DNA of 64,000 nt from Methylomarinovum tepidoasis. GTDB taxonomy: Bacteria; Pseudomonadota; Gammaproteobacteria; Methylococcales; Methylothermaceae. The stretch lies in contig NZ_AP024718.1 of assembly GCF_030294985.1 (NCBI RefSeq), positions 496,001 through 560,000 of the forward strand. Direction: 5' to 3'. The notes beneath the pieces were generated by a model. That model did no database searches. It saw only the letters and a list, made by a program, of their open reading frames with translations, and was not told the origin of the DNA. The translations under genes were made by a program, and so were the position numbers. Positions 2,925 through 42,664 of the stretch are shown here, one piece after another; positions within the stretch are counted from its first letter, which is position 1, and each line of letters begins with the position of its first letter.

Positions 2925-3372
2925 TCCAATGTGGTGGCCCCTCATCCTGCTACTTGTGCTGGCAACCGAAGGGAAAGGAAGTCCTTTCCTGGTCAGGACC
3001 ACCCTGGATTTCCAGACCACCTCCCCAAAGCCTCAAAAGCCACCGCCCCGTATCAGACGAAACAAATTAGATCGCTCCTACCGATCCAAAGGCTGGTTCA
3101 AAGTAGCCGGTTATTCCGGATCGAAGTATTTTTACGGCACCGTTCAAATAGTAAACCGCTCCAAGGTCGCCGGTTATGTATACACCCAGAACCCAGTAAA
3201 GGAAACCCCTAGAAAATCACAAAATTATCAAAAACCTCAGAACAAAGAAAAGGGCGCTCATGAAGAAAATAGGCAGAAGTACATTTACGGAAAAATAATC
3301 AAGAAAGGATTGATTCAGGCCTTTGATAAACAGGGCAATCTTTACCGCCTGACCATTCTGAAACCGCCTTGA
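2905..3372 (+). CDS. hypothetical exported basic protein
   Basis: A 155-residue protein that I do not recognise. It starts with a hydrophobic stretch (MWWPLILLLVLATEG) that looks like a signal peptide or anchor, then a very basic, Lys/Arg/Tyr-rich chain. Two short similar blocks contain KVAGY (WFKVAGYSGSKYFYGTVQIV and RSKVAGYVYTQN), and a later YIYGKIIKKG is similar in style. The end (GNLYRLTILKPP) is beta-like. The start at 2905 has a GGGAG site upstream and overlaps the GIN gene by 20 bases; ATG 2929 is the alternative. Base composition is more AT-rich than in its neighbours after about 3040, which may point to later acquisition or relaxed selection. It overlaps the TTG start of the next gene. 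Confidence 0.6.
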   Translation: MWKQWTDPMWWPLILLLVLATEGKGSPFLVRTTLDFQTTSPKPQKPPPRIRRNKLDRSYRSKGWFKVAGYSGSKYFYGTVQIVNRSKVAGYVYTQNPVKETPRKSQNYQKPQNKEKGAHEENRQKYIYGKIIKKGLIQAFDKQGNLYRLTILKPP

Positions 3373-4526
3373 AGTGGAAACCGCCCGGCAGCGCAGAAAG
3401 CGGGATATTTCTCTATCTGCTCACCTTTTCCCTACCGCTGCCCATCGACCTGGGTCTGCTCGGACTGGCCATTTGCGGCAGTCATACCGCCTTGAGCCGG
3501 ACCCCTCGTTTTTCCTACCCGGCACGGCTCGGCCTACCTCCTTTTCTCCTGGCAGTCGGGCTGGGTTGCCTGCTCAGCCCGGATCAGACCAGGGCCTTGC
3601 ACCTGATGCTGGCTTTGATTCCCGCCACCCTGATCTATCTATTGCTGGCGGGGTACTTCGAGCGCCGCCACACATCCACCCTGGCCTGGGTACTGACCAC
3701 CTTCCCCCTGGGTCTGGGCGGTTGGCTGCTGATCACCGCCATCCTGCACCCCGATCAGTCGCCTTCCGAATGGATAACCGCCAGTGGTCTGACAGCCTTC
3801 CGGGTTCCCAACGACACCGTCCTGTTCGCCATTTTGCTGCCTTTTCCACTCGCTCTGCTTGGAGGAGTCGGTCATCGCAGCCGTTGGCTCTGTTGGAGCG
3901 CGTTGGCTGTCGTTCTCCTGCTCGCGGTGATCTATCGCAGCCGCCTGACACTTCTGGTCAGCACCGTGACGGTCGGCACTTTCTTCCTTTTGGCAGGAAC
4001 CCCGTACCGGCGACGATTGCTCCGGAGACTGGCCTTTCTGGCCGTTTCCATCCTGGTGCTCGACGGTGTGCTGGGATTCCGCCTGTCCGGAAAGTTCCTG
4101 TCAACCTGGAGCAGCCGTCTGCCCCTGTGGCTGGCGGCCTGGCACATGTTTCTCGACGCACCGGGGCTTGGCCACGGTACAGGCAGTTATCTCGGCCTGT
4201 ATCGGCAATACCTCGATCCTGCCGATTTGCCCGCCTGGATCGTCTTCGACCAACGGCTCACCCCCTGGGCCCATAATCTGTATCTGGAGCTGCTGGCAGA
4301 ACTGGGATTGGCCGGTTTCTTAAGTTTCTTGGGTCTCGTTTCCCTGCCATTAAGAAACCTGCTCGCTTTTCAAGAAAAAACCATATTCGGATATGCTTTT
4401 ATTGCTGCCTTCGTCGGTTTCTCCATTGCTGCCCTGTTCGAACTCAGTCTGTGGCGCCAATGGGTAGGGTTGACTTTGCTGACGATAATTGGTTGGATGA
4501 GCAGCAATCAACATTGCAGCAAATGA
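3369..4526 (+). CDS. O-antigen ligase-like polytopic membrane protein
   Basis: A 385-residue protein with about 10-11 hydrophobic segments. It resembles the Wzy_C / O-antigen ligase (WaaL) group: after the mid-protein helices there is a loop with Arg and a GHGTGSYLGLYRQYLDPADLP region, followed by PWAHNLYLELLAELGLAGF, the H-N-x-Y/F-L-x-x-L-x-E-x-G-x-x-G signature of this family. These enzymes join glycans to lipid A core or to proteins at the periplasmic face of the inner membrane. It appears to use a TTG start overlapping the TGA of the previous gene. No other polysaccharide genes are adjacent, so the glycan acceptor is unknown; a protein O-glycosylation ligase is the alternative. Confidence 0.7.
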   Translation: MKWKPPGSAESGIFLYLLTFSLPLPIDLGLLGLAICGSHTALSRTPRFSYPARLGLPPFLLAVGLGCLLSPDQTRALHLMLALIPATLIYLLLAGYFERRHTSTLAWVLTTFPLGLGGWLLITAILHPDQSPSEWITASGLTAFRVPNDTVLFAILLPFPLALLGGVGHRSRWLCWSALAVVLLLAVIYRSRLTLLVSTVTVGTFFLLAGTPYRRRLLRRLAFLAVSILVLDGVLGFRLSGKFLSTWSSRLPLWLAAWHMFLDAPGLGHGTGSYLGLYRQYLDPADLPAWIVFDQRLTPWAHNLYLELLAELGLAGFLSFLGLVSLPLRNLLAFQEKTIFGYAFIAAFVGFSIAALFELSLWRQWVGLTLLTIIGWMSSNQHCSK

Positions 4527-4553
4527 AAATAAAAATCGAGTGGGAGGTAGGTT

Positions 4554-6038
4554 ATGAGAAAAACACGCCGATCATCTGCGCTTCTCGGGAAAATAACCAC
4601 CGCGGGACTGGCAGGATTATGCGGTACCATCGCCCTGTTGACCCCTGACTGGCGCCAACAGCTTCTTGCTGCTTATGATACCCCCGATACTCCCCCACCA
4701 ACCGAGCAGCAACCTCCCTCACCAACCGAGCAGCAACCTCCCTCACCAACCGAGCAGCAAAATCCCTTACTACTGAAGGTGAGGCAGCAGCAATCCCTCA
4801 ATCTTAATCAAACCGAAAAAACCATGGCCGTCGTGATGTTCGAGGCCTGCAGCGAACGCAACGAGCAATTGGAAGAACAATTCCGCACCCGCTGCAATCG
4901 CCTGGTCGGAACTGCACTGGATGAAACCGCAAATCCTGCGGAAGTGGGCAACGCCCTCTTCCGGGTCGCGCCTGAACAGCTGCTGGTATATGGTCTGCAG
5001 GCCACCCGCACCATGGCCAGCAACATCAATGTGGTCAATACCTCAATCCTGGGACGCCTGCAAACTCTGCACGCCGGTCTGGACTCGGTCCGGTTCGCCG
5101 GTATTCAGCTCTACAAGGACGGTCAGCCTCTGCGCGGCGGCAATGCCGGCAGCGAGGCTTTCGGCAAGCTGGGAGTCTGGCTAAACGGCAGCTATCATTT
5201 AGGGGAAGTGGACTCCACCCGGGATGTCAAGGGCTTCACTTTCAAAAATTGGAGCGTGACCGCCGGGGCCGACTACAAGATTCTGGAATCGCTGATCGTG
5301 GGGGGTGCCTTTACCTACATCACTTCCGATAACGATTTCAAGCACAAAGGAGGGGAGTCAGACAACGACTCTTACATCGGCTCTCTTTATGGCTCTTTCT
5401 ATCCCATTGAGAACCTTTACGTGGACGTGTTGGGCACCTACGGCCACATCAATTTCGACATAGACCGCAAGATCAGCTACCGCCTTGCCTCCTCCACCGA
5501 TCCTGACAACTTCGATGTGGTGGATACCAAGGCCAAGGGTGACACTGATGGCCGCCAGTGGGGCCTGACCCTCAGCACCGGCTACAACCTCCATTGGCAG
5601 TCGGTCAAGTTCACGCCTTACGCCCGTTTCAGCTATCTCAAGCTGGACATCGACAATTACCGGGAACGGGGCGGTCAGGGTTGGGCCATGCGCTTCGACA
5701 GTCAGGACATCGAATCGATGAAGAGCATCGTGGGAGGACGTCTAGCCTATGCCATCAGCCTGCCGTGGGGGGTGGTGGTACCCCAGGCGCGGGGGGAATG
5801 GCACCACGAATTCCGCGATCCCAGTCGTACCATCAAAGCCAGTTTCGTGGGGGACCCGCTCGGCCAGAAATTCTCCATTTTCGTACCTCATCCCGATGAA
5901 GACTATGCCATCTTCGGCGGCGACCTGACCGCCACCTTCGCCCAGGGAATTTCCGCCTTCGTCGGTTATGAAGCTCTGGTGGGCTACGACCGCATCAGCA
6001 GCCACCGCATCACCCTGGGCGCCCGCGTCCAGTTCTGA
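4554..6038 (+). CDS. autotransporter-type beta-barrel outer-membrane protein
   Basis: A 494-residue protein with an atypical N-terminus (Arg-rich, then a hydrophobic segment), then a Pro/Gln tandem repeat at about residues 48-69, a helical region (residues 80-170) and a C-terminal beta domain of about 280 residues. The barrel shows alternating amphipathic strands (LGVWLNGSYHLGEV, WSVTAGADYKILESLIVGG, TPYARFSYLKLDID) and ends in RITLGARVQF, with the terminal Phe used for recognition by the BAM complex. This fits the autotransporter beta-domain family. The passenger is very short, so it is more a membrane-inserted sensor or porin-like protein than a classical secreted adhesin. A terminator hairpin follows directly. 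Confidence 0.75.
   Translation: MRKTRRSSALLGKITTAGLAGLCGTIALLTPDWRQQLLAAYDTPDTPPPTEQQPPSPTEQQPPSPTEQQNPLLLKVRQQQSLNLNQTEKTMAVVMFEACSERNEQLEEQFRTRCNRLVGTALDETANPAEVGNALFRVAPEQLLVYGLQATRTMASNINVVNTSILGRLQTLHAGLDSVRFAGIQLYKDGQPLRGGNAGSEAFGKLGVWLNGSYHLGEVDSTRDVKGFTFKNWSVTAGADYKILESLIVGGAFTYITSDNDFKHKGGESDNDSYIGSLYGSFYPIENLYVDVLGTYGHINFDIDRKISYRLASSTDPDNFDVVDTKAKGDTDGRQWGLTLSTGYNLHWQSVKFTPYARFSYLKLDIDNYRERGGQGWAMRFDSQDIESMKSIVGGRLAYAISLPWGVVVPQARGEWHHEFRDPSRTIKASFVGDPLGQKFSIFVPHPDEDYAIFGGDLTATFAQGISAFVGYEALVGYDRISSHRITLGARVQF
4697..4760 (+). repeat. 24-bp in-frame tandem repeat
   Basis: Three copies of a 24-bp unit, with ACCAACCGAGCAGCAA at 4697, 4721 and 4745, encode PPTEQQ then PPSPTEQQ twice in the autotransporter-like protein. 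The period is an exact multiple of three, so copy-number change keeps the frame. It forms a flexible spacer between the signal region and the helical domain. Confidence 0.9.
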
Positions 6039-6049
6039 TCCTTACCGCA

Positions 6050-6081
6050 GGCCCCACGCCCCGGGCGTGGGGCCCCTTCTT
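6050..6081. terminator. bidirectional rho-independent terminator
   Basis: A perfect 10-bp stem GGCCCCACGC / GCGTGGGGCC with a 5-base loop is followed by CCTTCTT on the plus strand. It lies between two convergent genes, the barrel protein and the caspase lipoprotein, and can serve both. Confidence 0.8.
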
Positions 6082-6090
6082 ACAGCCCAG

Positions 6091-8904
6091 CTACAGCCCG
6101 GCCTGTACCGTACCGGGCACTGGCACGAAGAAGAATTCTCCCGCCTCGTGACCGGCATGACGGATCGGCGCGAACTCCGGAACCTGATGGAAATCCTGTT
6201 CCCGCGCCGCATCGGCTACCAGCGCGGATACCTGCGCATACAGGCGGAACGATTCCAGAACGCCATCATTGCGTTCCAAAGCCTGAATCAACGCCTTGGC
6301 GAACACCGAATGGTTGCCCCCCCCGCTATCGAGCACCGGACTCAGGCCGCCGGAAGTCAGTGCCATGCGCGACTTTGCCTTGAGCATCAGCTTGATCCAC
6401 TCGGCTTTTTTCTCCGGGCTCATGCCCGCTTCCAGCCGCGCCACCGAACTGCGCGTCAGCGATCCTGAATAACAGGAATCGGCGATAACCATCACATGGG
6501 CGGCATTCATGATTCGCAACAGGTCGGTGACATCCTGATTGGAAATCCAGTTGGCGGTATTCTCCATCTCCGCATCCACCGGCAGCCAGAATCCCCGCTG
6601 GGTGACTTTTTCCAGAGTACCGTGCCCGGCATAGTAGATCAGCAGGTTGTCCTTTTCGGTCAGAATCTTGCGGTACTCGTTGAGTGCCTTGAGGATGTCG
6701 TAACGCGTGGCATCAAGCAGGACCTTGGTCTGGAAACCATAGCGGGTACGCAGTACCCGGGCCAGCGCCTTGGCGTCGTTGATCGGCGTATCGAGCACCG
6801 GCAGATGCCGGTAAGCATTGTTGCCGATAATCAAGGCGTAATAACGGCCGAAAATTTCCCGTGGCAGGGAATCGACCACACGCCTGGACAATTCTTCCTC
6901 CACCTCGGAACCCGCCTTGAGCGGGACCGGCGCCGCAGTCTGAGTGTCACGCAGAATGATGAATTCCAGTTCGCTGCGGCGACTGGCCCGATCGATCGCC
7001 ACCAGCCGGACGGGCGTCTTTTCACCCTTGAGCGGTATCTTTACCTTAAAGGTGCCGCTAGGATCGACCGGAAAGTCCTGATCGTTGACCAGAAAAGCCA
7101 ACAGCCCTGTTTCCGTCTGTACCCGGCCGACCACGGTCCTCGCCTCCACCAGCCCACGGGTGACCACCATCAGGCTTCCCCGCTGGGGACGCAGTGGAGG
7201 ATCGATGATCTCGATCCTGGGACCACCGGCGGCTTTGGTTTCCGCCCGCGCCACCAGCGGAACCGGCTGCTCTCTGGCCTGGCGTTTCAGATCAGCCAGC
7301 TGTGCCTGCAGCTGCCGTATCTGCGCCTGCTGGCGGGCCAGTTCCATCTGCTTGGCCTGCAACTGGCTGGACAGCAGGGCCAGTTCCGCTTCGCCGGTGT
7401 GTCCGTCTCCCTTTTTCCGGGCCAACTGGCGCTTGAGGGCTTCGATGCCCTGACGTTGCGATAAAAGCTGGCGGTTGGCCACCTGCAATTGCTGCTGCAG
7501 GTCCTGAATCGCCTGTTCCTTCTCCGCCAGGGTACGGTTCAAAGTCTGCAATTGCTCGGCTTGGCTCTGAACCTTTTGCTGAACACCGCTCAGACGTTGC
7601 GCCAACCGGGCCAGTTGGCGCTGACGGTCGGCCAGTTTGCTCGCCAGACTCTGATTGAGACGCTGCAGACGAGCCATTTCCGCCTGCACATCGCTCAAGG
7701 CCTGGCGGCTACGTGCCACTTCCGCCTGCTTGGCGGCCAACTGCGCTTGCAGGCGGCGCCAGTCCACCGAATCGGTCTGACCGCTGGCTTTTTTCTCCGC
7801 CACCTGGCGCTTCAGTGCTTCCAGCCGTGCTATCTGGTCGGCCAACTGCCGGTTGCCCTGGGTGACCCGCTGCTGCAAGCGTTGCAGGCGCTGGCGGCTC
7901 TGATCCAATTGATGTCGGAGATCTTCCACCGTTCGATTGCGCTGCGCCAGCTCCTGCTCCAATTGCTGAATACGGCTTTCTTTGGCCTGAATGGTCTGGG
8001 AGGTACTGGTCTGCAGGGTGTGAAGCTGCTGGTTCTGACGTTGCAATTCCTTTTCCAGCAATCCCACCATCTGTTCCTTCTCCTGCAGGCGGCGGATCTG
8101 CTCTTCAAGCTTTTGCTTCAGCGCGGAACCGCTTCCTGCCGGCAAACGTTGCAACTGTCGCCGCAATCGCTGAATCTCCCGTCGGCCGGCCCGGACCTGG
8201 GCCTGGTAACGCCGCAGCGTCTTTAGGGTCTGTCGGTGCTCTGACTGCAGCATGGCCAGTTTCTCCCGCAGCCCGGCGGCCTCCCGACGGTATTTGTCCG
8301 CATCCTGTCGCAAGGCAGCCATCTTGCGCTCATAGACTTCCACCGAAGCGGCAAAGGCGATGTCGGTCTTGTCGAGACCGGAAGCCCTGCGATACCAGTT
8401 GAGCGCCGCCACCGGATCCCTGGGCACACCCAGGCCCTTTTCATAGAGGAAGCCCAGGTTGATCATGGCAGGCGCATAACCCTGTTCCGCCGCTTTGCGG
8501 TACCAGTGGGCGGCGGCTTGGTAGTCCGGCGTCAGACCAAGCCCCTTTTCGTAGATTTCACCCACATAGGTCTGGGCCTTGGCATCTCCGGCCCTGGCCT
8601 GGGGCAACCAGATCTTCAGGGCCGTGGCATAATTGCTGCGATCGTGGGCCACGTACTCGCCGCCGCGGATCTCACAATCGATGGCTGTGGTCCGGACGGC
8701 CTTGCGGGCAGCCAGATAGGTCATATGCTGCCCCAACTGCCGCACCTGGGCCGGCAACAGGCAATCCACCACGTACAATTTGTCCACCTGTCCGGGACCG
8801 ACGGCCACCTCGTCCATCGGCGTGGAGGCACAACCGGCCAGCATACCGGTCAAAAAGGCGGCGCCGGACAGCCACAACTGGGCAAGCCAACGCGATGCTT
8901 TCAT
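6091..8904 (-). CDS. lipoprotein with Sel1 repeats, long coiled coil and caspase-like (C14) peptidase domain
   Basis: A 937-residue protein. A lipobox LAGC follows the signal peptide (Cys near residue 25), so it is probably a lipoprotein. Two Sel1-like repeats follow at about 95-175 (AQTYVGEIYEKGLGLTPDYQ, APAMINLGFLYEKGLGVPRD). A very long Gln/Arg/Leu coiled coil covers roughly 190-550. After a beta-rich linker comes a caspase domain from about 700: YYALIIGNNAYRHLPVLDTP, the catalytic His in YYAGHG (His761) and the catalytic Cys in ADSCYSG (Cys811). Both catalytic residues are present, so the peptidase should be active. The first base lies 26 bases from the divergent esterase gene. Exported bacterial caspases with such coiled coils are not well characterised, and substrates are unknown. 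Confidence 0.85.
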   Translation of the reverse strand: MKASRWLAQLWLSGAAFLTGMLAGCASTPMDEVAVGPGQVDKLYVVDCLLPAQVRQLGQHMTYLAARKAVRTTAIDCEIRGGEYVAHDRSNYATALKIWLPQARAGDAKAQTYVGEIYEKGLGLTPDYQAAAHWYRKAAEQGYAPAMINLGFLYEKGLGVPRDPVAALNWYRRASGLDKTDIAFAASVEVYERKMAALRQDADKYRREAAGLREKLAMLQSEHRQTLKTLRRYQAQVRAGRREIQRLRRQLQRLPAGSGSALKQKLEEQIRRLQEKEQMVGLLEKELQRQNQQLHTLQTSTSQTIQAKESRIQQLEQELAQRNRTVEDLRHQLDQSRQRLQRLQQRVTQGNRQLADQIARLEALKRQVAEKKASGQTDSVDWRRLQAQLAAKQAEVARSRQALSDVQAEMARLQRLNQSLASKLADRQRQLARLAQRLSGVQQKVQSQAEQLQTLNRTLAEKEQAIQDLQQQLQVANRQLLSQRQGIEALKRQLARKKGDGHTGEAELALLSSQLQAKQMELARQQAQIRQLQAQLADLKRQAREQPVPLVARAETKAAGGPRIEIIDPPLRPQRGSLMVVTRGLVEARTVVGRVQTETGLLAFLVNDQDFPVDPSGTFKVKIPLKGEKTPVRLVAIDRASRRSELEFIILRDTQTAAPVPLKAGSEVEEELSRRVVDSLPREIFGRYYALIIGNNAYRHLPVLDTPINDAKALARVLRTRYGFQTKVLLDATRYDILKALNEYRKILTEKDNLLIYYAGHGTLEKVTQRGFWLPVDAEMENTANWISNQDVTDLLRIMNAAHVMVIADSCYSGSLTRSSVARLEAGMSPEKKAEWIKLMLKAKSRMALTSGGLSPVLDSGGGNHSVFAKALIQALERNDGVLESFRLYAQVSALVADAAREQDFHQVPEFAPIRHAGHEAGEFFFVPVPGTVQAGL

Positions 8905-8930
8905 CCTCGGATCTCCAAATTCGCCTTCAT

Positions 8931-9917
8931 ATGAATAAGGACGTACTTCCGGCGGGACAATCCATCCTCAGAGCCATCATACTCCCTTGGATCATCCTCG
9001 CCAGCATCGGTTGCAGCGGCTGCAACCCTCGTTACGCCCGGCTCGACCGCCAGGCGGAAAAACTGAGATTCCACAGCGGCTGGGTTGAGGGTTCCGGATT
9101 CCGCCACCGGATCTACTTTCGCGCCTCCGGTGACGGCGATCCGGAACCGTTATGGGTCTTTCTCGAAGGAGACGGTCTGGCCTGGCTGTCCAGCGATCGC
9201 GTCGCCCGCGAGCCGACCCCCCCGCACAGCTGCCTGCTGACCCGGATGGCCGAAACCCCGGAGAACGTGGTCTATCTGGGCCGCCCCTGCTACCACGGAC
9301 AGGCCCAGGCGCCAGGCTGCCATCCCCTCCTGTGGACCCAAGACCGTTACGCACCCACCGTCGTCGCCAGCATGAAGGCTGCTCTGCAGGCACTGACGGA
9401 TGACTTCCGCCGACCTGTCATCCTGGTGGGTTACAGCGGTGGCGGCACGCTGGCCATGCTGCTGGCCGCCCGCCTGCCCTCCGTGATCGGCGTCATCACG
9501 CTGGCGGGAAATCTGAACGTGGCCGCATGGCGCCGCCTGCATGGATACAGCCTTCTGGCGGGTTCTCTGGACCCCGCGCGCCAGCCGCCCTTGCCCGATG
9601 ACATTTTTCAGATTCATATCGCCGGCCAACTGGACGATAATATCCCGGCAGACTTGATAGCCACCGAGGCGGCACGCCAGCCGAACGCCCGCCTTCTGAT
9701 CGCTCCCGGCATGAGACACGGCTGCCCGGCGGAGGAAATATGGCGTGCCGTCGTGACCGCCGCCACGACACTGGTACCTCGAACCGGCAAAAAACAGGAG
9801 CAATGTCCGTGCATGAAGGGTAATCACAACAACGACCAAAGGAATCCCGGTCATGATCTGTGTACAGGCCCTTCATCCGGCAGCAGTGCCTTGCCCCCCC
9901 AGGAACCTGCAGGATGA
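8931..9917 (+). CDS. lipoprotein alpha/beta hydrolase
   Basis: A 328-residue protein with signal peptide and lipobox ASIGC (Cys28), so probably membrane-anchored in the periplasm. It has an alpha/beta hydrolase nucleophile elbow GYSGGG (Ser169), preceded by FLEGDGLAW (oxyanion-hole type strand) and followed by a late His in PGMRHGCP. This is an esterase or lipase-type fold; the substrate is unknown. I chose ATG 8931 because it gives a proper signal peptide; ATG 8895 would overlap the start of the divergent caspase gene. The C-terminus after about residue 290 is low-complexity and ends 7 bases before the sigma-factor start, which suggests co-transcription with it. Confidence 0.75.
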   Translation: MNKDVLPAGQSILRAIILPWIILASIGCSGCNPRYARLDRQAEKLRFHSGWVEGSGFRHRIYFRASGDGDPEPLWVFLEGDGLAWLSSDRVAREPTPPHSCLLTRMAETPENVVYLGRPCYHGQAQAPGCHPLLWTQDRYAPTVVASMKAALQALTDDFRRPVILVGYSGGGTLAMLLAARLPSVIGVITLAGNLNVAAWRRLHGYSLLAGSLDPARQPPLPDDIFQIHIAGQLDDNIPADLIATEAARQPNARLLIAPGMRHGCPAEEIWRAVVTAATTLVPRTGKKQEQCPCMKGNHNNDQRNPGHDLCTGPSSGSSALPPQEPAG

Positions 9918-9924
9918 AACAGCA

Positions 9925-10746
9925 ATGACGACACCCATCCCGGAACTGCGCTTCCCTCTGTCCGAACAAGCTGCCCGCAACCTGGTCTTCAGCCATTGGG
10001 ACCTGTTGCAACACTTGGCCCGACGCCGTTTCCCCAACGACGACAACACGGCCCACCTGGCCCTGGACTTCGTCTTGGAAAAGCTCCAGGAAGAGGGCTG
10101 GCACCGCATTCGCAGCTGGGAAGGCAAAGGAAAGTTCACCACGTTTCTCGGCGTGCTGACCGGCCGCCTGATGACCGACTACGTGCGCAAAATATATGGC
10201 CATCAGCGCCCCCCCAAGTGGCTGACCGAGAAGAAAGATCCGATCTGGCGGGAGGCCTATCGCATCCTGATCCTGGATCGTTTCGAGCGTCAGGAAGCCG
10301 TCTCTCTCCTGGAAACCAACCACCCGGACCGGGACCGCACCACCCTGGAACGTATCGTCTCCGAGGTCATCGGCCACTGCCCGCCCCGGCACCGTTATCA
10401 GGACAGCCAGGGGATCGCCATCGACCATATCGCCGAACCGGCCAGCGAGGCGCCCACACCGGAAGCGGAACTGGAACCCCACCCCCGGGCGCTGCTGGAA
10501 GCCCTGGAGAGCTACATCCGCGGAGAGGGCGACCTGCCTGATGAGGCCCGCCCCCTGTTGGAAAAGCTGCAGACCCATCTGGAACTGAGCGATGAAGAGC
10601 GTTTGCTGCTGCGGTTGCGCTTCTGCGAGGGCATGAAGATGGCCCAGATCGCCAAACTGCTGGGAATCAAGGGCGATCCATACAAGCGCCTTAACAAAAT
10701 TTTGACCCGCCTCAGACAAGCTTGTGAAGCGGCCGGCATCCTTTAA
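9925..10746 (+). CDS. ECF-like RNA polymerase sigma factor
   Basis: A 273-residue protein with a sigma-70 region 2-like segment (residues ~15-90, with GKFTTFLGVLTGRLMTDYVR) and a C-terminal region 4 with a helix-turn-helix (SDEERLLLRLRFCEGMKM then AQIAKLLGIKGDPYKRLNKI). A long acidic, Pro-rich linker joins them, as in larger ECF-type factors. The ATG at 9925 directly starts the conserved part. It is followed by a membrane protein with a zinc-finger anti-sigma motif, so the pair forms a sigma/anti-sigma switch. Regulon unknown; the neighbouring caspase, esterase and protease are the obvious candidates. Confidence 0.8.
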   Translation: MTTPIPELRFPLSEQAARNLVFSHWDLLQHLARRRFPNDDNTAHLALDFVLEKLQEEGWHRIRSWEGKGKFTTFLGVLTGRLMTDYVRKIYGHQRPPKWLTEKKDPIWREAYRILILDRFERQEAVSLLETNHPDRDRTTLERIVSEVIGHCPPRHRYQDSQGIAIDHIAEPASEAPTPEAELEPHPRALLEALESYIRGEGDLPDEARPLLEKLQTHLELSDEERLLLRLRFCEGMKMAQIAKLLGIKGDPYKRLNKILTRLRQACEAAGIL

Positions 10747-10768
10747 TTCTTAACTCTGAATCGATGCG

Positions 10769-11644
10769 ATGAACGAAAACGCCCCTATGAAAGAAAACGA
10801 ACGGCTGATCAGCCTGCTGGGCCTGGCGGCCACCCGCCGGGAGGAAACCGAAGACCACCATCCGCCGCCGGAAGTGCTGGCAGCCTTCATCGAACAGCGC
10901 CTGCCTTCCTCCCGGCGGCAGGCGGTCCTCGCCCATCTGAACCGCTGCGAATGCTGCTATCAGGAATGGCTGCACAGCGCGGCCGCCCTGGAAGAAGCCC
11001 AACCGGAAGAGACGCCGATCCATCGGCCTGCGTGGTGGCAGCGCTTGTGGGAGCGCCTGCGCCCCCGCCCCTGGCTCATCCCCCTGACGGTGGCCGTGAC
11101 CGCCGGTTTGGCGGTGGCCGTGGTACTGGTCCAGCAGCCGATGGCAGGCGAATGGCCGCCCCGCCAAATCATCGCCGCTCTGCCCAAGGGACATAAAATC
11201 CCTTACGACCGACTCCCGCGCCTCGAAGCACCGTTTGCTTTCAACGACACAGCGGTCGATCCGGCCAAGGACGCAGTCTCCCAGGGGCTGCGAGACGCCC
11301 GCTTCTGGATCGAACATCCCAACCAGGTGGACCTGAGGGACGAAACCCACGACACACCGGAGAAACGGGCCTACCGCAGCTTGGGCCAATGGCTGCTGTT
11401 GGCCTGGGCCATGACTCAGAAGGAAGACTCCGATCCGAATGTCTGGCAAGTATTCCAGCAATACGGCCAAAGCCTGGCGGCGGAATTTGGGAAACTGCCG
11501 CCATCCTCCCAGCGGGATCAGGCCCTGGCGGACCTGCGCGAAGTCCAGACCATGATGGAAGCTTTGGCCGAAGCGCCGGGCTCTGCCCAGCGGACCCGTC
11601 TGCAACGCAAACTGCGCCTGATCATCGGCCGATGGCAAGGTTGA
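10769..11644 (+). CDS. membrane-anchored zinc-finger anti-sigma factor
   Basis: A 291-residue protein. Near residues 55-65 it has HLNRCECC, an H-x3-C-x2-C zinc-binding anti-sigma (ZAS) motif. One transmembrane helix lies at about residues 105-125 (LIPLTVAVTAGLAVAVVLV). The cytosolic N-terminal ZAS domain would bind the sigma factor encoded directly upstream. The periplasmic part (about 165 residues) is predicted helical and may sense an envelope signal; its fold is not recognised. The stop overlaps the ATG of the M48 protease gene (ATG 11632), so the protease is translationally coupled and could be the regulated or signal-processing component. Confidence 0.8.
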   Translation: MNENAPMKENERLISLLGLAATRREETEDHHPPPEVLAAFIEQRLPSSRRQAVLAHLNRCECCYQEWLHSAAALEEAQPEETPIHRPAWWQRLWERLRPRPWLIPLTVAVTAGLAVAVVLVQQPMAGEWPPRQIIAALPKGHKIPYDRLPRLEAPFAFNDTAVDPAKDAVSQGLRDARFWIEHPNQVDLRDETHDTPEKRAYRSLGQWLLLAWAMTQKEDSDPNVWQVFQQYGQSLAAEFGKLPPSSQRDQALADLREVQTMMEALAEAPGSAQRTRLQRKLRLIIGRWQG

Positions 11645-35383: not shown

Positions 35384-36157
35384 ATGTTCCGTCAAGCCGT
35401 CAGAAACAGCGTCCACGATCTCATCATCACCGCCATCACCTTCGTCGGGATCGCCGGCTGTCTCTATCTGGATTCGTTTCACGACCTCGAACTGCAGAAC
35501 GCCCTGGGAAAATGCGCCTGGGTCGTCCTCATCGGCGTGTTGTTTTGGGAAAGCAATCTGGTGCGGCTACAGGTTCTGATCGCGGTCGCCTTCGCCACCG
35601 CCGGCGAGCACTTCGCCTCCGGCATGATGCACGGCTACATCTACCATTTCCACAATATTCCCGCCTACATCCCCCCGGGACACGGCCTGGTCTATCTGAC
35701 CGCCGTCGCCATGGCCCGCTCGCCCCTGTTCCAGCTGTGGCAGAAACCGGTCACCTGGGGGGTGCTGCTGGTCATGGGATTGTGGTCCTTGTGGGGGGTG
35801 ACCTTCGCCGAACGCGGCGACTGGGTCGGCATGCTGCTGTTTCTGGTCTACGTTCCCTGTGTGCTGTGGGGCCGCGCGCCGCTGGTCTATCTGGCGGCTT
35901 TCTTCGTCACCACCCATCTGGAGCTGATCGGCACCGCCCTGAAAACCTGGACCTGGGTGCCCATCGATCCGGTGCTGTCGCTGCCCCAGGGAAACCCGCC
36001 CAGCGGCGTCGCCGCCTGGTACTGCCTGGTGGATGCAGTGGCGCTGTTCGGCGCCAACTGGCTGATCCTGCAATGGCAGCGCCTGCAGACCCTGCCGGCT
36101 ACCTTCAGACAATGGCTCTCGGCGCCGGAATGGGTGCACGTGGCTGCAGAAGACTGA
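35384..36157 (+). CDS. hypothetical polytopic membrane protein
   Basis: A 257-residue protein with about seven hydrophobic segments (IITAITFVGIAGCLYL, CAWVVLIGVLFW, VLIAVAFATAGEHF, VTWGVLLVMGLWSLWG, MLLFLVYVPCVLW and more). Conserved-looking polar residues lie in helices: GEHFASGMMHGYIYHF with two His, and FVTTHLELIGTALKTWTW. It has an AGGAAA SD. I do not recognise the family; helical His/Glu residues could bind metal or lipid. It ends in a good terminator, so it is probably a monocistronic unit. Confidence 0.65.
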   Translation: MFRQAVRNSVHDLIITAITFVGIAGCLYLDSFHDLELQNALGKCAWVVLIGVLFWESNLVRLQVLIAVAFATAGEHFASGMMHGYIYHFHNIPAYIPPGHGLVYLTAVAMARSPLFQLWQKPVTWGVLLVMGLWSLWGVTFAERGDWVGMLLFLVYVPCVLWGRAPLVYLAAFFVTTHLELIGTALKTWTWVPIDPVLSLPQGNPPSGVAAWYCLVDAVALFGANWLILQWQRLQTLPATFRQWLSAPEWVHVAAED

Positions 36158-36883: not shown

Positions 36884-37159
36884 ATGCCCAAGTACGTCAT
36901 CGAACGGGAGATCCCCGGCGCCGGCGACCTGTCGCCGGAGGAGCTGACCGCCATTTCGCAGAAGTCCTGCGGCATCCTGCGAGAAATGGGGCCCCAGATC
37001 CAATGGGTGGAAAGCTATGTCACCCAGGACAAGATCTATTGCGTCTATATCGCCCCCAATGAAGAGGCCGTGCGCGAACATGCGGCCAAGGGCGGCTTTC
37101 CCGCCGACCGCATCAGCGAGGTGAAGACGAAGATCGATCCCACCACGGCGGAGGGCTGA
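36884..37159 (+). CDS. DUF4242 small protein
   Basis: A 91-residue protein of DUF4242 (MPKYVIEREIPGAGDLSPEEL; then WVESYVTQDKIYCVYIAPNEEAVREHA), a ferredoxin-like alpha+beta fold some members of which bind nickel or other metals. It has a good SD (AAAGGAGAA). Function unknown. It stands 3 bases before the ferredoxin gene, which suggests a coupled electron-transfer or metal role in the operon. Confidence 0.8.
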   Translation: MPKYVIEREIPGAGDLSPEELTAISQKSCGILREMGPQIQWVESYVTQDKIYCVYIAPNEEAVREHAAKGGFPADRISEVKTKIDPTTAEG

Positions 37160-37162
37160 GCC

Positions 37163-37345
37163 ATGAAGATCCACTGGGACGAAGCACGCTGTTGCCACGC
37201 CGGCATCTGCGTGAAGGAACTGCCGCAGGTGTTCAAGGTCGAGGACGGCCGGCTCGAGATCGACGCCGAGGCTGCCCCAGAAGCGGAAATCCGCCGGGTG
37301 GTCGGCATGTGTCCCGCCGCCGCACTTGCCATCGAAGAAAAATGA
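37163..37345 (+). CDS. small [4Fe-4S]-type ferredoxin-like protein
   Basis: A 60-residue protein. Cys residues in CCHAGICVKELPQVF and VGMCPAAAL match the divergent Fer4_19-type single-cluster ferredoxins (C-x-H-x-G-x-C ... CP). It would carry electrons in the cytosol. It lies in the operon between DUF4242 and the exported SBP56 protein. The SBP56 product is exported while this is cytosolic, so they act in the same pathway but not in one complex. Confidence 0.75.
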   Translation: MKIHWDEARCCHAGICVKELPQVFKVEDGRLEIDAEAAPEAEIRRVVGMCPAAALAIEEK

Positions 37346-37389: not shown

Positions 37390-38682
37390 ATGATCCGAAT
37401 CTTACTGCTGAGCCTGGGCCTCCTGGCCGCCGCCCTCCCTGGCAGCGCCGATGAAACGCCGCTGTCCCCCTACATGCCCAAGATCGTCGGCCAGGAGGAT
37501 TTCATCTACGTCTGGACCCTGGGCATCGAGGGGCTGGGAGACGGCTCGGACAAGCTCGTCACCATCGACGCCAATCCCAACTCCAAGACCTTCGGCAAGG
37601 TCATCCACAGCGTTTCCGTGGGCGGCCGTCACGAGGCCCACCACTCCGGCTTCACCGACGACCGCAACTATTTGTGGGCCGGCGGCCTGGACACCAGCAA
37701 GATCTTCATCTTCGACGTCCACACCGATCCGGCCAGGCCGAAGCTGGTCAAGGTGATCGACGACTTCGTGGAGAAAAGCGGCGGCGTGGTCGGCCCCCAC
37801 ACCACCTACGCCCTGCCCGGCCGCATGATCATCAGCGGGCTGTCCAACGACAAGGACTACGGCGGCCGCACCGCCCTGGTGGAATACACCAACGACGGCC
37901 GGTACGTCGCCACCTATTGGATGCCCACCGACGACAACCTGCAGGGCGCCGTCAAGATCGGCAAGCATGCCGACGGCTACGGCTACGACGTCCGCGCCCT
38001 GCCCCGCCTCGACATCATGCTGACCTCCTCGTTCACAGGTCACCGCAACTACATGCGCGATCTGGGGGAACTGATGCAGGACAAGCAGGCGATGCAGGAA
38101 TTCGGCAACACCATGGTGCTGTGGGACCTGCACGACCGCAAGCCCAAACTGATCTTCGACGTGCCGGGCGCGCCGCTGGAAATCCGCTGCGCCTGGGAAC
38201 CGAACCACAACTACTGCTTCACCAGCACCGCCCTGACCGCCAAGATCTGGCTGGTGTATCTGGGCGATCAGGGGAAATGGCACGCCCAGGCGGTGGCGGA
38301 CATCGGCGATCCCGCCAAGATCCCCCTGCCGGTGGACATCTCCATCGAAAGCGACGACCGGCGCCTGTGGGTGACCACCTTCATGGACGGCAGCGCCCGC
38401 CTGTTCGACATCTCCGACCCGTTCCACCCGAAGCAGATCTATCAGAAAAAGATCGGCGCCCAGGTGAACATGGTGTCCCAGAGCTGGGACGGCAAGCGGG
38501 TCTATTTCAGCTCATCGCTGCTGTCGAAGTGGGATAAGAAGGGCAAGGACAACGAACAGTTCGTCAAAGCCTACCGCTGGGACGGCAGGGAATTGACGCC
38601 CCTGTTCCAGATCGACTTCCTCAAGGAGAAGCTGGGACGCCCCCATCAGATGCGTTTCGGCGCCTACGCGCTCTATCGATGA
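37390..38682 (+). CDS. SBP56-family protein, probable methanethiol oxidase
   Basis: A 430-residue protein with a signal peptide (MIRILLLSLGLLAAALPGSA), so periplasmic. It is a seven-bladed propeller of the selenium-binding protein 56 family: YVWTLGIEGLGDGSDKLVTI, HEAHHSGFTDDRNYLWAGGL and PHTTYALPGRMIISGLS; metal-binding His residues in HEAHHSGF and the late HQMRFGAYALYR. SBP56 is methanethiol oxidase (copper-dependent) in Hyphomicrobium and in humans, converting methanethiol to formaldehyde, H2S and H2O2. The SD AGAGG lies 6-10 bases upstream of ATG 37390. The C-terminal end is complete. The exported form and the regulator upstream support a role in methylated-sulfur use or detoxification. 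Confidence 0.88.
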   Translation: MIRILLLSLGLLAAALPGSADETPLSPYMPKIVGQEDFIYVWTLGIEGLGDGSDKLVTIDANPNSKTFGKVIHSVSVGGRHEAHHSGFTDDRNYLWAGGLDTSKIFIFDVHTDPARPKLVKVIDDFVEKSGGVVGPHTTYALPGRMIISGLSNDKDYGGRTALVEYTNDGRYVATYWMPTDDNLQGAVKIGKHADGYGYDVRALPRLDIMLTSSFTGHRNYMRDLGELMQDKQAMQEFGNTMVLWDLHDRKPKLIFDVPGAPLEIRCAWEPNHNYCFTSTALTAKIWLVYLGDQGKWHAQAVADIGDPAKIPLPVDISIESDDRRLWVTTFMDGSARLFDISDPFHPKQIYQKKIGAQVNMVSQSWDGKRVYFSSSLLSKWDKKGKDNEQFVKAYRWDGRELTPLFQIDFLKEKLGRPHQMRFGAYALYR

Positions 38683-38704: not shown

Positions 38705-39130
38705 TCACCCCAGCCACCAGACCAAAGCCGCATAGCGCAGCCCCTTGCCGGCGGCGATCAGCGCCAAACCGGGCAGCCAGGGCAGACGCAGCCAGCCGGC
38801 CGCAAGGCACAATCCGTCGCCGATCAGCGGCAGCCACGACAACAGCAGCACCGGCAGGCCGTAACGACGCACCTTCGCCAACGCCGCTTCCGGCACCTTG
38901 CGGGCCAGAAGCCGCTGCGGCGACCATCCCTTCGCCAACATCCAGCCCAGCCACCAGGTCGTCATCGCCCCCAAGGTGTTTCCCAGGGTGGCGCTGAACC
39001 ACAACGGCAGCGCCGCTTCCGGCGTCTGCAGCACCCACCAGGCCAGCAACGCCTCCGAACCGCCCGGCGCCAGAGTGGCCGACACGAAGGCGCTGACGAA
39101 CAGCGCCGACAGGGGAAAGGATTCGATCAT
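38705..39130 (-). CDS. YqaA-like (SNARE-associated/DedA-type) membrane protein
   Basis: A 141-residue protein with four hydrophobic segments, similar to YqaA and the DedA/VTT family: the start SALFVSAFVSATLAPGGSEA has the reentrant-loop style with Pro and Glu, and later PLWFSATLGNTLGAMTTWWLG is the conserved GNxxG region. DedA-like proteins handle lipid flipping; YqaA itself is poorly known. It is convergent with the SBP56 gene (gap 22 bases) and separated from the copper operon by a terminator. Confidence 0.75.
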   Translation of the reverse strand: MIESFPLSALFVSAFVSATLAPGGSEALLAWWVLQTPEAALPLWFSATLGNTLGAMTTWWLGWMLAKGWSPQRLLARKVPEAALAKVRRYGLPVLLLSWLPLIGDGLCLAAGWLRLPWLPGLALIAAGKGLRYAALVWWLG

Positions 39131-39136
39131 GCGCCC

Positions 39137-39165
39137 GTCAAAAAGCCCTCGCGGTGGAGGGCTTT
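39137..39165 (-). terminator. terminator of the copper-protein operon
   Basis: A perfect 9-bp stem AAAGCCCTC / GAGGGCTTT with a 6-base loop. On the minus strand it is followed by TTTTTGACG. Confidence 0.85.
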
Positions 39166-39190: not shown

Positions 39191-40018
39191 TCAGCTGGAC
39201 GAGCCTGCGGCTGTCAACGACCGGATCAGTTTGATCAGCCGGCAGAAGAGCGCCATGATCCGTTCGAACAGATAAGCGTTCAGCTCCCGACCACTCATGC
39301 CGAGGAAACGCCGTCCCACCCAGTCGAACAGATAGGGAGCGCCGAGCACCGCCAGCACCAGACCGAGGACCAGCAGGCCCGACAGTAGGGGGCGGCGACC
39401 GGATTCCGGCGTCTGTGCCGTAGCGTCCGCCGCCACTACCCCACCCATCTCGCCATGATCCGGATAGACGACCGCCGGCGGGGTGATGCCGGCGATTCCA
39501 GGTAAGTCGCCGCTACCGTCACCGACCACCAGCTCGGCCTTCATGCCTTTCTCGGTGTGCTGGGTGATGTCACAATGGACCAGATAGGTCCGGTCTTCGG
39601 CCGGGGCGATGAAGGTTCCGGTCACCTCGCCGGGACCGGTCACCTCCAGGTGGAACATGCCGCGGGGATAGACTTCCTCGGGCAGACCGTGGAGCATCCA
39701 CTGATGGCGGATCTGGTCCTCGTTGACCAGGGTGACGGTGACCCGGGCACAGGGCTCGACCTGCCACTTGCGCCGGTCGTAACCGAACATGGTGCCGGGA
39801 AAGTCGCGTGAATATTTGTGGCCGGCATGGACGGTCAGTTTCACGTCCTCCGAAATCCGGCGGCAGCCCGGCGGCAGTTGGTCGGTGTTGTATCCCATCA
39901 CCATCTTACCGCCCATGTCCATGAGCATGCGACCGTGGTTCATCATCGGCATCTTCGCTGCCCAGACGGGCAGAGCCAACAGCACCCCCCACAAGATCCA
40001 GAGGCCAGTCCGTTTCAT
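39191..40018 (-). CDS. exported cupredoxin with C-terminal membrane anchor
   Basis: A 275-residue protein with a signal peptide (MKRTGLWILWGVLLALPVWA). The cupredoxin domain spans about residues 40-180: first ligand His in IRHQWMLHGLP, then VHCDITQHTEKGM, a C-x4-H-x4-M type 1 copper pattern. Met/His-rich residues follow the signal peptide (KMPMMNHGRMLMDMGGKM) and may bind copper. One transmembrane helix near residues 215-240 then a basic tail. So it is anchored with the copper domain in the periplasm. It is the last gene in a three-gene run (gap 1 base) and would pass electrons to or from the multicopper oxidase upstream. Specific function not known. Confidence 0.85.
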   Translation of the reverse strand: MKRTGLWILWGVLLALPVWAAKMPMMNHGRMLMDMGGKMVMGYNTDQLPPGCRRISEDVKLTVHAGHKYSRDFPGTMFGYDRRKWQVEPCARVTVTLVNEDQIRHQWMLHGLPEEVYPRGMFHLEVTGPGEVTGTFIAPAEDRTYLVHCDITQHTEKGMKAELVVGDGSGDLPGIAGITPPAVVYPDHGEMGGVVAADATAQTPESGRRPLLSGLLVLGLVLAVLGAPYLFDWVGRRFLGMSGRELNAYLFERIMALFCRLIKLIRSLTAAGSSS

Positions 40019-40019
40019 C

Positions 40020-41723
40020 TTATGATTTCTCCAGAACGTAGCGGCAGAACAGCTCACGGGCACGTTCACGATTGGAAAACAGCACATAGGCGAGAAGGCC
40101 GATCAACAGCCCGATCCAAAAACGCCTCCACGGGGAAGCCTCCTCCCCGGCTTCCGGCGGTTGGACCGTTTCCTGACTGCGGGCTTCGGGATCGCCCAGG
40201 CTGTCCCATTCGTCGATGTTCTGCCAAACCGGCAGTTTGCGCTGATAGAAAGCTTCGGTGAAATAGCGGCTGAGGTCGACGCCCTGCACCTTGGGAACGT
40301 CCCCTGGCCCCAGATAGGACTTGTAGACGATGGCGCTGATGTTGCCGCCCGGGTTCATGCCGTCGGTGGTGATGCCGCGCTCGACGTGATCATGGACCAC
40401 CCAGATTCCCTGGCCGTAATTGTGCAGGCCGTCGTCGGTAGTGGTGAGCTTGAGATCGACACGTTGGGCGGGGGCAAGATCGAAGATGTCCCGCATGATC
40501 CGGGCTTGGGGATTGACGGCGACCCCGTCATAGTGGGTGATGGTCGCCTTGTGGCCATGGGTGTGGACCGCCAAAAGCTCGCTCTGGGCGTTGAGCATGC
40601 GGAGTTTGATGTTCTGATCCGGCTCGACCACCAGCAGGGATTCCCGCAGAGTGTAGGGGAAGGAACGGCCGTTGAGCAGGAAGTAGTCCTCGGTGGCGTC
40701 GGTCAGGTCGTATTCGCGGTTCATGCGTTTGGCGATGACCCGCGGATCGTTGGAGGACTGGACGATCTGGTGCAGTTCCTTGTCCACCGCTTGATAGACC
40801 AGATCGTATTCCTGATCGTATTCTTCCCGGATTGCCTTGGCGGGGTGGCGGACCTTACCGGCACCGACGTTCAGGGTTTGCACCCAGTTGTTCGGGCGAT
40901 TCTCCTCCACCACCAGCATCCCGATCAGCCCCATCGCCAGGTGGGTATGGGTCTGAACGTGACAGTGATAGATGAAGGTGCCCGGCTGGCGCGGGGTGAT
41001 GTCGTAGGTCCGTGCTTGCCCGGGAATGATGAAGCCTTCGCTGGTCTGGGGTACGCCGTCGTTGCCCTCCCCTTTGGCATCGACGTAGGGATGATCCACA
41101 CCGTGAAGGTGAATGGTGTGGGGAAAGTAATGGGTGTTCTCGAGCACGATCCTGACCGTGTCCCCCTGCTCCACCCGAATCGTCGGCGACGGGGGACGCA
41201 GCAGCGGATTGGCTTCGATGCTGTGGGCGTCCTTGGTCGCCATGCCGCGGACCTTGGGCGCGAAGACCCAAAAGGCTGGCTTGATCCCGGGGGCGATGGC
41301 GAAGCCGTGAACCGGTTCGGTGGTATCCGGAGAGGCGCCGTTGAGTTCCGCGACCTCCAGCTTGATGATGATCTCGTCCGGATCCCCGTCCCCGTCGCGG
41401 TCGTTGCGCTTGATGACGCTGTCGGCCGCCAACCGGGTCTTCATCAGGGTCGGCATGGAGATGTTGTTGGTTCCCTTGACGAAAGCAGCGATGTCATAGG
41501 GATTGTCCGGCAGACAGACACGCTCTTCCTCGATTTCCACCCCGTCGATCTTTTGGGCGTCACGCCACCGAACAGGGCGCTCTGGAGGACAGAAAGGCTC
41601 CGGCGCTGCCGCCTGGGCGGGCTTGGCATGGGCGTCCGGCATTGATGAGACGTCCGCCGTCACGGCAAAAGAGAAACAGAGGGCGAAAACGCCCCCTGCC
41701 AAAGTCACACGGTATCGCTGCAT
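40020..41723 (-). CDS. exported multicopper oxidase with C-terminal membrane anchor
   Basis: A 567-residue protein with a signal peptide (RYRVTLAGGVFALCFSFAVTA). Copper motifs are HTIHLHGVDHPY, YHCHVQTHTHLAMGL (H-C-H region), AVHTHGHKATITHYDG and VHDHVERGITTDGMNPGG. The layout is not that of typical three-domain CueO or two-domain NirK, and is closer to a long plastocyanin-like family. At the C-terminus is a single helix (WIGLLIGLLAYVLF) and a basic tail. The first part before the first copper box (about residues 30-150) also holds an acidic DRDGDGDPDE motif, possibly a calcium site. I chose ATG 41723 for the signal peptide. Substrate unknown. Confidence 0.85.
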   Translation of the reverse strand: MQRYRVTLAGGVFALCFSFAVTADVSSMPDAHAKPAQAAAPEPFCPPERPVRWRDAQKIDGVEIEEERVCLPDNPYDIAAFVKGTNNISMPTLMKTRLAADSVIKRNDRDGDGDPDEIIIKLEVAELNGASPDTTEPVHGFAIAPGIKPAFWVFAPKVRGMATKDAHSIEANPLLRPPSPTIRVEQGDTVRIVLENTHYFPHTIHLHGVDHPYVDAKGEGNDGVPQTSEGFIIPGQARTYDITPRQPGTFIYHCHVQTHTHLAMGLIGMLVVEENRPNNWVQTLNVGAGKVRHPAKAIREEYDQEYDLVYQAVDKELHQIVQSSNDPRVIAKRMNREYDLTDATEDYFLLNGRSFPYTLRESLLVVEPDQNIKLRMLNAQSELLAVHTHGHKATITHYDGVAVNPQARIMRDIFDLAPAQRVDLKLTTTDDGLHNYGQGIWVVHDHVERGITTDGMNPGGNISAIVYKSYLGPGDVPKVQGVDLSRYFTEAFYQRKLPVWQNIDEWDSLGDPEARSQETVQPPEAGEEASPWRRFWIGLLIGLLAYVLFSNRERARELFCRYVLEKS

Positions 41724-41742
41724 GGAGTTATTGCTTTGGTCT

Positions 41743-42357
41743 TTAGAGGTTCTTGAATTTGCCCAATACCCCATCCACTGCAGCGCGGAAACCGGCATGG
41801 GACAGGTACAGAATGTAAACGAGCGCCAGTAGCACGATACCGACGATCATGTAAAGGCGCATCTGGGAACCGCTGTCGACGCCCACGAGCAGCTCCAGAT
41901 GGTTTTCGTATTCCTTGCCGTTGGGATCGACCAGCTTGACCTCGACTTCATAGTTCCCCGGCTGTTCGAAATCCACCACGGTCTCCAGAATACCGCCACG
42001 CATCTTTTTCGGCGGCACCTCGGCAATCACCGTCCCGTCGGACTCGCGGACCACCTTCAAAGCCAGCCTCATTTCCTTGATTTTCTGATCCAGTTCCCGC
42101 GTCGCACCAATGGAAGTGGTCCCTTCCTTGGATTCATAGTCGAACACCAGGTTGGTACGGCCCAGGCCAGGCATCTGGGTACAATACTTGCGGTCGCCGG
42201 TCAGCTGGGGTTGATAGGCGGAAAACATCAGGGTGAAATCACCGACACTGATGCGGCAGAAATCACCGCCGCCGCCACCGCCGCCATCGGCGAAAGCCGG
42301 CGTCAGGGAAGCGAATCCCAGAATCAACGCGACGAAAAATTGGAATAAACTGCGCAT
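41743..42357 (-). CDS. hypothetical exported Gly-rich, membrane-anchored protein
   Basis: A 204-residue protein that I do not recognise. After a signal peptide (LILGFASLTPAFA) there is DGGGGGGGDFCRISVG, then a beta-rich periplasmic domain (LVFDYESKEGTTSIGATREL; GNYEVEVKLVDPNGKEY) with a fold like the YtkA/FixH or Ig-like group; two Cys residues (FCRI and YCTQMPG) may bind metal or form a disulfide. A transmembrane helix lies near residues 170-187, with a basic tail. The SD GGAGGAG precedes ATG 42357. It is the first gene of the copper operon (gap 19 bases to the oxidase), so it may be an assembly factor or subunit. Confidence 0.65.
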   Translation of the reverse strand: MRSLFQFFVALILGFASLTPAFADGGGGGGGDFCRISVGDFTLMFSAYQPQLTGDRKYCTQMPGLGRTNLVFDYESKEGTTSIGATRELDQKIKEMRLALKVVRESDGTVIAEVPPKKMRGGILETVVDFEQPGNYEVEVKLVDPNGKEYENHLELLVGVDSGSQMRLYMIVGIVLLALVYILYLSHAGFRAAVDGVLGKFKNL

Positions 42358-42538
42358 AGCTCCTCCACTCTCTAGCTAGGTTATTATGGAATACGGGCTC
42401 TTCGTATTGTGCCAAATCAGGCACGACAAATGAAGGCCGCTATCCACTTTACCAAATCACGGCGTGGAAAAGCCAGCATCAGGAAATGTTTATATGAACC
42501 GGCAACGACGCGGTGGGGGGAGACGAAATCATGAGAAG

Positions 42539-42612
42539 TGGCTACGGGTGGACTCGAACCACCGACCCCAGCATTATGAGTGCTGTGCTCTAACCAGCTG
42601 AGCTACGTAGCC
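42539..42612 (-). tRNA. tRNA-Met(CAU), elongator
   Basis: The minus strand gives a full cloverleaf: acceptor GGCTACG/CGTAGCC, D arm with AGCTCAGC, anticodon arm CAGCACTCATAATGCTG (anticodon CAT), T arm GGTTCGAGTCC. It is close to E. coli elongator tRNA-Met. The discriminator base is A; CCA is not encoded. An initiator is excluded because the first pair is G-C and the anticodon stem lacks three G-C pairs. Confidence 0.95.
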
Positions 42613-42664
42613 GTCACAAGGAAGCGCATATTATTCCCGGAGCGGTTTTCAGTGTCAAGCCTCG

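Follow-up and report, generated by a model that had tools for sequence, protein, structure and literature searches.

A PmoD-family, multicopper oxidase and cupredoxin gene trio of Methylomarinovum tepidoasis: a possible copper-handling module accompanying CuMMO

Three adjacent genes of Methylomarinovum tepidoasis, encoding a PmoD-family protein, a two-domain multicopper oxidase (MCO) and a cupredoxin, may represent a membrane-tethered periplasmic copper-redox or copper-handling module that accompanies CuMMO, with cuprous oxidation and copper buffering as our first, still tentative, choice of role. The trio lies within the window analysed here (64,000 nucleotides; NZ_AP024718.1, nt 496,001 – 560,000), and its arrangement is not a matter of chance because it recurs across the whole order. 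Gene content, matching trees, ligand conservation, association with CuMMO-bearing genomes and, in some of these, clustering with pmoCAB all speak for the module. Against it stand the alphaproteobacterial samples, which are devoid of the cupredoxin, the loci in which the MCO lies apart (39 of 80, the best 80 of 577), and the location of pmoCAB, which is mostly elsewhere. The features of the region, in window coordinates, are:

42538 – 42612, minus strand: tRNA-Met, upstream of the operon
41743 – 42357, minus strand: gene 1, PmoD-family protein, 204 aa (ORF reading)
40020 – 41723, minus strand: gene 2, two-domain MCO, 567 aa, ATG at 41723 (ORF reading)
39191 – 40018, minus strand: gene 3, cupredoxin, 275 aa (ORF reading)
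39142 – 39165, minus strand: hairpin (9-pair stem) and T-run, a possible terminator or attenuator between genes 3 and 4
38705 – 39130, minus strand: gene 4, YqaA-like small membrane protein, directly downstream of the cupredoxin
35384 – 36157, plus strand: 257-aa polytopic membrane protein, a conserved neighbour of the module

A preliminary description of this DNA had reported an operon of three adjacent genes, and the ORF reading bears out both their coordinates and the gaps between them (19 bases between genes 1 and 2, a single base between genes 2 and 3). It had overlooked the conserved fourth gene, the product of which matches VTT_dom with an E value of 1.4e-6 and 29.2 bits, below the cut-off of 33.9. 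The hairpin preceding gene 4 is graded as weak because its folding z is only -1.4, and it is missing from the list of the consensus scan. The sole sigma-70-like site found (nt 42658 – 42630) is upstream of the tRNA-Met gene and not immediately before gene 1. The 257-aa membrane protein, which gave no match in a Pfam search, usually comes next after gene 4 in other genomes, but in the window it lies farther away and on the opposite strand, past the mtoX gene. The latter encodes a methanethiol oxidase, MtoX (nt 37396 – 38682; 752 bits, cut-off 650), downstream of the module, and it adjoins the module in at least five loci of Methylothermaceae MAGs as well (among the best 80 of 577 loci). An SCO4226-like nickel-responsive protein (PF14026) and a Fer4_19 ferredoxin are encoded next to each other at nt 36884 – 37345.

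Gene 1 is, as judged from its sequence, a member of the PmoD family. It matches the PmoD structure PDB 6cpd over the periplasmic domain, with an E value of 7.7e-4 as a single sequence and 1.6e-14 as a family profile. The glycine run and two cysteines noticed earlier are both present: GGGGGGG occupies residues 25 – 31, and there are exactly two Cys, C34 and C59, which are invariant in all 49 homologues (alignment rows). The run of seven glycines is confined to close relatives, while elsewhere the mature PmoD begins with HGG. Hydropathy reveals an N-terminal segment at residues 4 – 22 (signal peptide) and a C-terminal one at 172 – 190 (TM helix). A signal peptide, two invariant Cys, a C-terminal TM helix and a CuMMO-bearing host are shared with PmoD/AmoD (6cpd, PMC6189053); the M. 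tepidoasis genome has two pmoA genes, one of which was mapped together with pmoCAB. Unlike that protein, gene 1 lies away from pmoCAB, its conserved partners include the cupredoxin and the YqaA-like gene, and its copper motif is Cx9M (C34, nine residues, M44) without the Cx7MxH ligands of CuA. M44 occupies the position of the CuA His, which most relatives retain, and His is absent between the two Cys. According to Fisher et al. 2018 (PMC6189053), CuA was seen only with Cx7MxH; gene 1 does not show the CuA-forming motif given there (Cx7MxHxnC), and because the Cx7MxH ligands are absent a CuA protein was rejected for this copy.

Gene 2 is, on its motifs, a two-domain MCO with the type 1 (T1) copper in domain 1. 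Pfam models Cu-oxidase_3, Cu-oxidase_2 and Cu-oxidase all score above their cut-offs, and the protein consists of an N-terminal extension of about 160 residues, two copper domains and a C-terminal TM segment. The T1 set is assigned to domain 1 only (H202/C254/H259/M264), and there are four HxH motifs (HLH 205 – 207, HCH 253 – 255, HTH 387 – 389 and HDH 444 – 446). The HxH motifs and the T1 Cys are kept in 59 of 60 alignment rows, and nearly all rows have the full ligand set; M264 is replaced by Leu in six of the 60. Its nearest relatives in the PDB are the two-domain oxidase of N. europaea, 3g5w, which is the best match and aligns with both domains, and 2zwn. Gene 2 and 3g5w share two cupredoxin domains, of which the first holds the T1 site, and HxH motifs that would serve a trinuclear centre, but the match reaches only 99 bits over the two domains, and gene 2 differs in its N-terminal extension, its C-terminal anchor and its partners. 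A trimer with inter-subunit trinuclear copper may be inferred. CopA and CueO were rejected as identities for gene 2 (TIGR01480, 53.7 bits against a cut-off of 478.95; CueO model, 38.8 against 525), and among plasmids the best relative of the MCO had about 31% identity over half of the protein. The late segment FWIGLLIGLLAYVLF is short and falls below the hydropathy cut-off (1.6 in a 19-residue Kyte-Doolittle window), but forms a helix (residues 531 – 550, local pLDDT >80) in the AF2 model. As a whole this monomer model is poor (mean pLDDT 57.5) and was left out of fold searches.

Gene 3 is predicted to be a cupredoxin without a close named family. Its sole Pfam match above cut-off is Cu-oxidase_2 (26.9 bits, cut-off 20.4); plastocyanin/azurin (PF00127) reaches 12.3 bits, short of its cut-off of 21.2, and single-sequence and profile searches of the PDB gave no sequence relative. 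The T1 ligands, read as H105/C149/H154/M159, are conserved, two additional histidines (H110 and H148) are near-invariant, and a Met-rich N-terminus (M33, M39, M41) is kept in 98% of aligned rows. The AF2 model is good (mean pLDDT 84.8), and its top structural matches are cupredoxin folds: nitrosocyanin (Z 11.9, 12% identity), NirK domain 1 (Z about 10), auracyanin and others, all within about 2 Z units. Such Z values do not fix a family. The ligands of gene 3 read H-C-H-M; its identity to nitrosocyanin and NirK is low (12 – 23%), and it differs from them in its membrane anchor and its Met-rich N-terminus. A strong late hydrophobic segment at residues 211 – 229 (TM helix at about 214 – 238) is followed by a second predicted helix (243 – 272). 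All three proteins had been described as exported, with one late transmembrane helix and a basic tail; late hydrophobic segments are indeed present, but the tail of the cupredoxin holds this second helix.

Conservation of gene order was determined in 61 genomes (M. tepidoasis and 60 relatives), where 82 MCO places were compared with matches to PmoD and the cupredoxin. The cupredoxin is downstream of the MCO at 67 of the 82 places; pmoD is directly upstream at 43, and every one of these 43 has the cupredoxin downstream. Together with the near-invariant ligands, this neighbourhood conservation sustains the earlier picture of three membrane-anchored copper proteins kept together. In quick trees the MCO and cupredoxin fall into matching paralogue groups, with several long branches. 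While pmoCAB lies elsewhere than the trio in most methanotrophs, pmoA occurs 2.1 – 2.3 kb upstream of the trio, on the same strand, in nine of the 61 genomes, and the order in all four annotated loci of these nine is pmoC-A-B-D-MCO-cupredoxin. The nine genomes are presumably mostly Cycloclasticaceae, judging in part from the agreement with PMC12510462, where phmo was missing in isolates and present in other genomes.

A contig scan gave the best 80 of 577 loci, and distribution beyond the order therefore rests on genome samples. Among these best 80, pmoD precedes the cupredoxin in 78. The MCO separates the two in 38 of the 80, and in 39 no MCO was found at the locus. The YqaA-like gene follows the cupredoxin in at least 70, always on the same strand and at a median of 63 nt past the cupredoxin ORF, and is kept at the CuMMO-linked loci also; the 257-aa membrane protein is near the module in at least 51, in 47 of them on the strand of the cupredoxin. 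ORF clusters 4, 7 and 9, antisense to the trio, were set aside as reading-frame artefacts. As to whether other such operons contain the first gene, a point on which the preliminary description hinges, the outcome is mixed. While pmoD regularly precedes the cupredoxin, a PmoD match was found neither near the paralogous MCO-cupredoxin pair of M. tepidoasis (C1:1285-1287 kb), which is flanked by cytochrome c maturation-like ORFs on one side and fchA-like ORFs on the other (here and below, such ORFs are named from their sequences), nor beside the pair of a probable ammonia oxidiser, G162.

Across the genomes examined the trio tends to go with CuMMO. All three proteins occur in each of the 50 pmoA-bearing genomes among the 61, and the three genomes lacking the trio lack pmoA also (chance value about 0.005, hand-computed and ignoring relatedness, which inflates such co-occurrence counts). 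The other eight, mostly fragmented MAGs, have the trio but no pmoA match. In a sample of 349 genomes from the phylum the cupredoxin was found in two, M. tepidoasis and G162, both with pmoA. The third pmoA-bearing genome of this sample, G247, has ten PmoD matches but neither cupredoxin nor MCO, and the cupredoxin was found in none of 13 genomes sampled from its family (alphaproteobacterial methanotrophs). G162 is probably a gammaproteobacterial ammonia oxidiser, since pmoA/amoA and hao-type genes are both present in it. Within its genus the cupredoxin was found in nine of ten genomes, and the MCO adjoins it in all six loci checked. In the G162 locus (nt 3347 – 11024) the MCO-cupredoxin pair is followed by NorC/NorB-like and then NorQ/NorD-like ORFs.

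One relative, G001, carries a trio that is depleted in copper ligands (contig C73, nt 5955 – 8696). All three reading frames are uninterrupted. Of the ten MCO ligands on which the 59 other rows agree without exception, nine are gone (H202 remains), compared with 12 of the remaining 84 invariant positions (Fisher p 2.4e-6 for the ligand excess). The cupredoxin has lost C149, H154, H110, H148, M39, M41 and M108, retains H105 and M159, and seemingly has no signal peptide; its ligand test alone gives p 0.06. The PmoD retains both Cys, with Ile in place of Met. The evidence for this trio is a single 9.9-kb MAG contig, and an assembly error is unlikely because such a substitution pattern spans three open frames. 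The pMMO, elsewhere in the genome, retains its ligand regions and is apparently copper-competent. Joint loss of ligands from the MCO and cupredoxin is expected if both share one copper function, and retention of pMMO beside a copper-poor trio implies that CuMMO does not depend on this function in every host. The loss speaks against electrons having to reach pMMO by this route, and would fit a dispensable, copper-protective role.

In the favoured reading, cuprous oxidation with copper buffering, the hosts would be CuMMO-bearing gammaproteobacterial oxidisers of methane, ammonia and alkanes. The Met-rich segment of the cupredoxin would bind Cu(I), its type-1 copper would hand electrons to that of the oxidase, and the oxidase, assumed to be a trimer, would reduce O2 at its trinuclear centre, while PmoD would bind copper at the membrane beside them. 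The net effect might be to protect CuMMO or to load it. An electron path between oxidase and cupredoxin, as proposed earlier, is plausible. That PmoD, the oxidase, a new cupredoxin family and the YqaA-like protein constitute a dedicated gammaproteobacterial CuMMO accessory, clustered in some genomes with pmoCAB and reduced in at least one lineage to a copper-depleted, structural role, is more doubtful.

The same genes could also form a respiratory-like side chain, in which cytochromes, quinol or a small organic or inorganic donor would reduce the cupredoxin and the MCO would pass the electrons on to O2. The single base between the two genes, the anchors of both proteins, the intact T1 and trinuclear motifs and the cytochrome c maturation-like ORFs adjoining the second M. 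tepidoasis copy are in keeping with it, but none of the conserved neighbours was recognisable as a gene for a cytochrome or another donor. We consider such a chain unlikely; its purpose would be to scavenge oxygen or to balance redox state close to pMMO. Were PmoD and the cupredoxin instead to feed electrons to the monooxygenase, with the MCO as a safety valve, the CuMMO-linked order in nine genomes would be readily understood; this is improbable given that the pMMO of G001 has intact ligand regions while the accompanying cupredoxin is without its T1 Cys, and that the cupredoxin is missing from the sampled alphaproteobacterial pMMO bearers, as is the MCO from G247.

An analogy with the N. europaea oxidase would suggest nitric oxide or nitrite chemistry. 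This oxidase, which is encoded in the ncgABC-nirK cluster, is the closest solved relative of the MCO, the fold of the cupredoxin is nearest to nitrosocyanin and NirK (in rows close in Z), and norCBQD-like ORFs lie beside the pair in G162, one of the ammonia oxidisers. NorC is, however, beside the pair in G162 only, being absent from the short loci checked in five related genomes, from every Methylococcales locus examined and from the window, which weakens nor genes as partners, and the conserved neighbour clusters inspected held no recognisable nirK or cytochrome (ncgBC) partner; this chemistry, too, seems improbable. Least probable is a generic CueO/CopA-like copper-resistance oxidase of copper-rich organisms, lacking any CuMMO-specific role. 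A Met-rich partner for the oxidase would suit it, but the CopA and CueO models score far below their cut-offs, and within the phylum sample the cupredoxin is confined to CuMMO-bearing genomes.

The pairing of pmoD with an MCO gene is already published. Fisher et al. (PMC6189053) found Cx8M-class PmoDs to be common near multicopper oxidase genes, and in PMC6688271 the pmoD of M. capsulatus, MCA2130, adjoins an MCO gene and is down-regulated without copper, a response counted here in favour of a copper module, while the Kam1 pmoD also adjoins an MCO. The main text of an M. capsulatus transcriptome study (PMC4831470) does not mention MCA2128-2130. Hence the "new accessory subunit" of the preliminary description is a known protein family, already reported near MCO genes. 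Compared with the MCA2130 and Kam1 loci as described, the present arrangement has a third and a fourth gene in addition, and in some genomes the CuMMO-linked order. No description of the cupredoxin and YqaA-like partners, of that order, or of a copper-ligand-depleted trio with pMMO retained was found in literature lying mainly outside subscription papers and supplements. Once isolated, pMMO and AMO are left with little or no activity, and which proteins assist them is not settled (PMC6189053). A gene set that accompanies CuMMO, and sometimes adjoins it, offers concrete helper candidates to add back or delete, for which the naturally copper-depleted variant of G001 is a ready-made control.

A second PmoD of M. 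tepidoasis (C1:755829; locus 5417-6414) has the motif Cx9H and comes after TonB-receptor-like and CopC-like ORFs, with which it may possibly form a copper uptake set.
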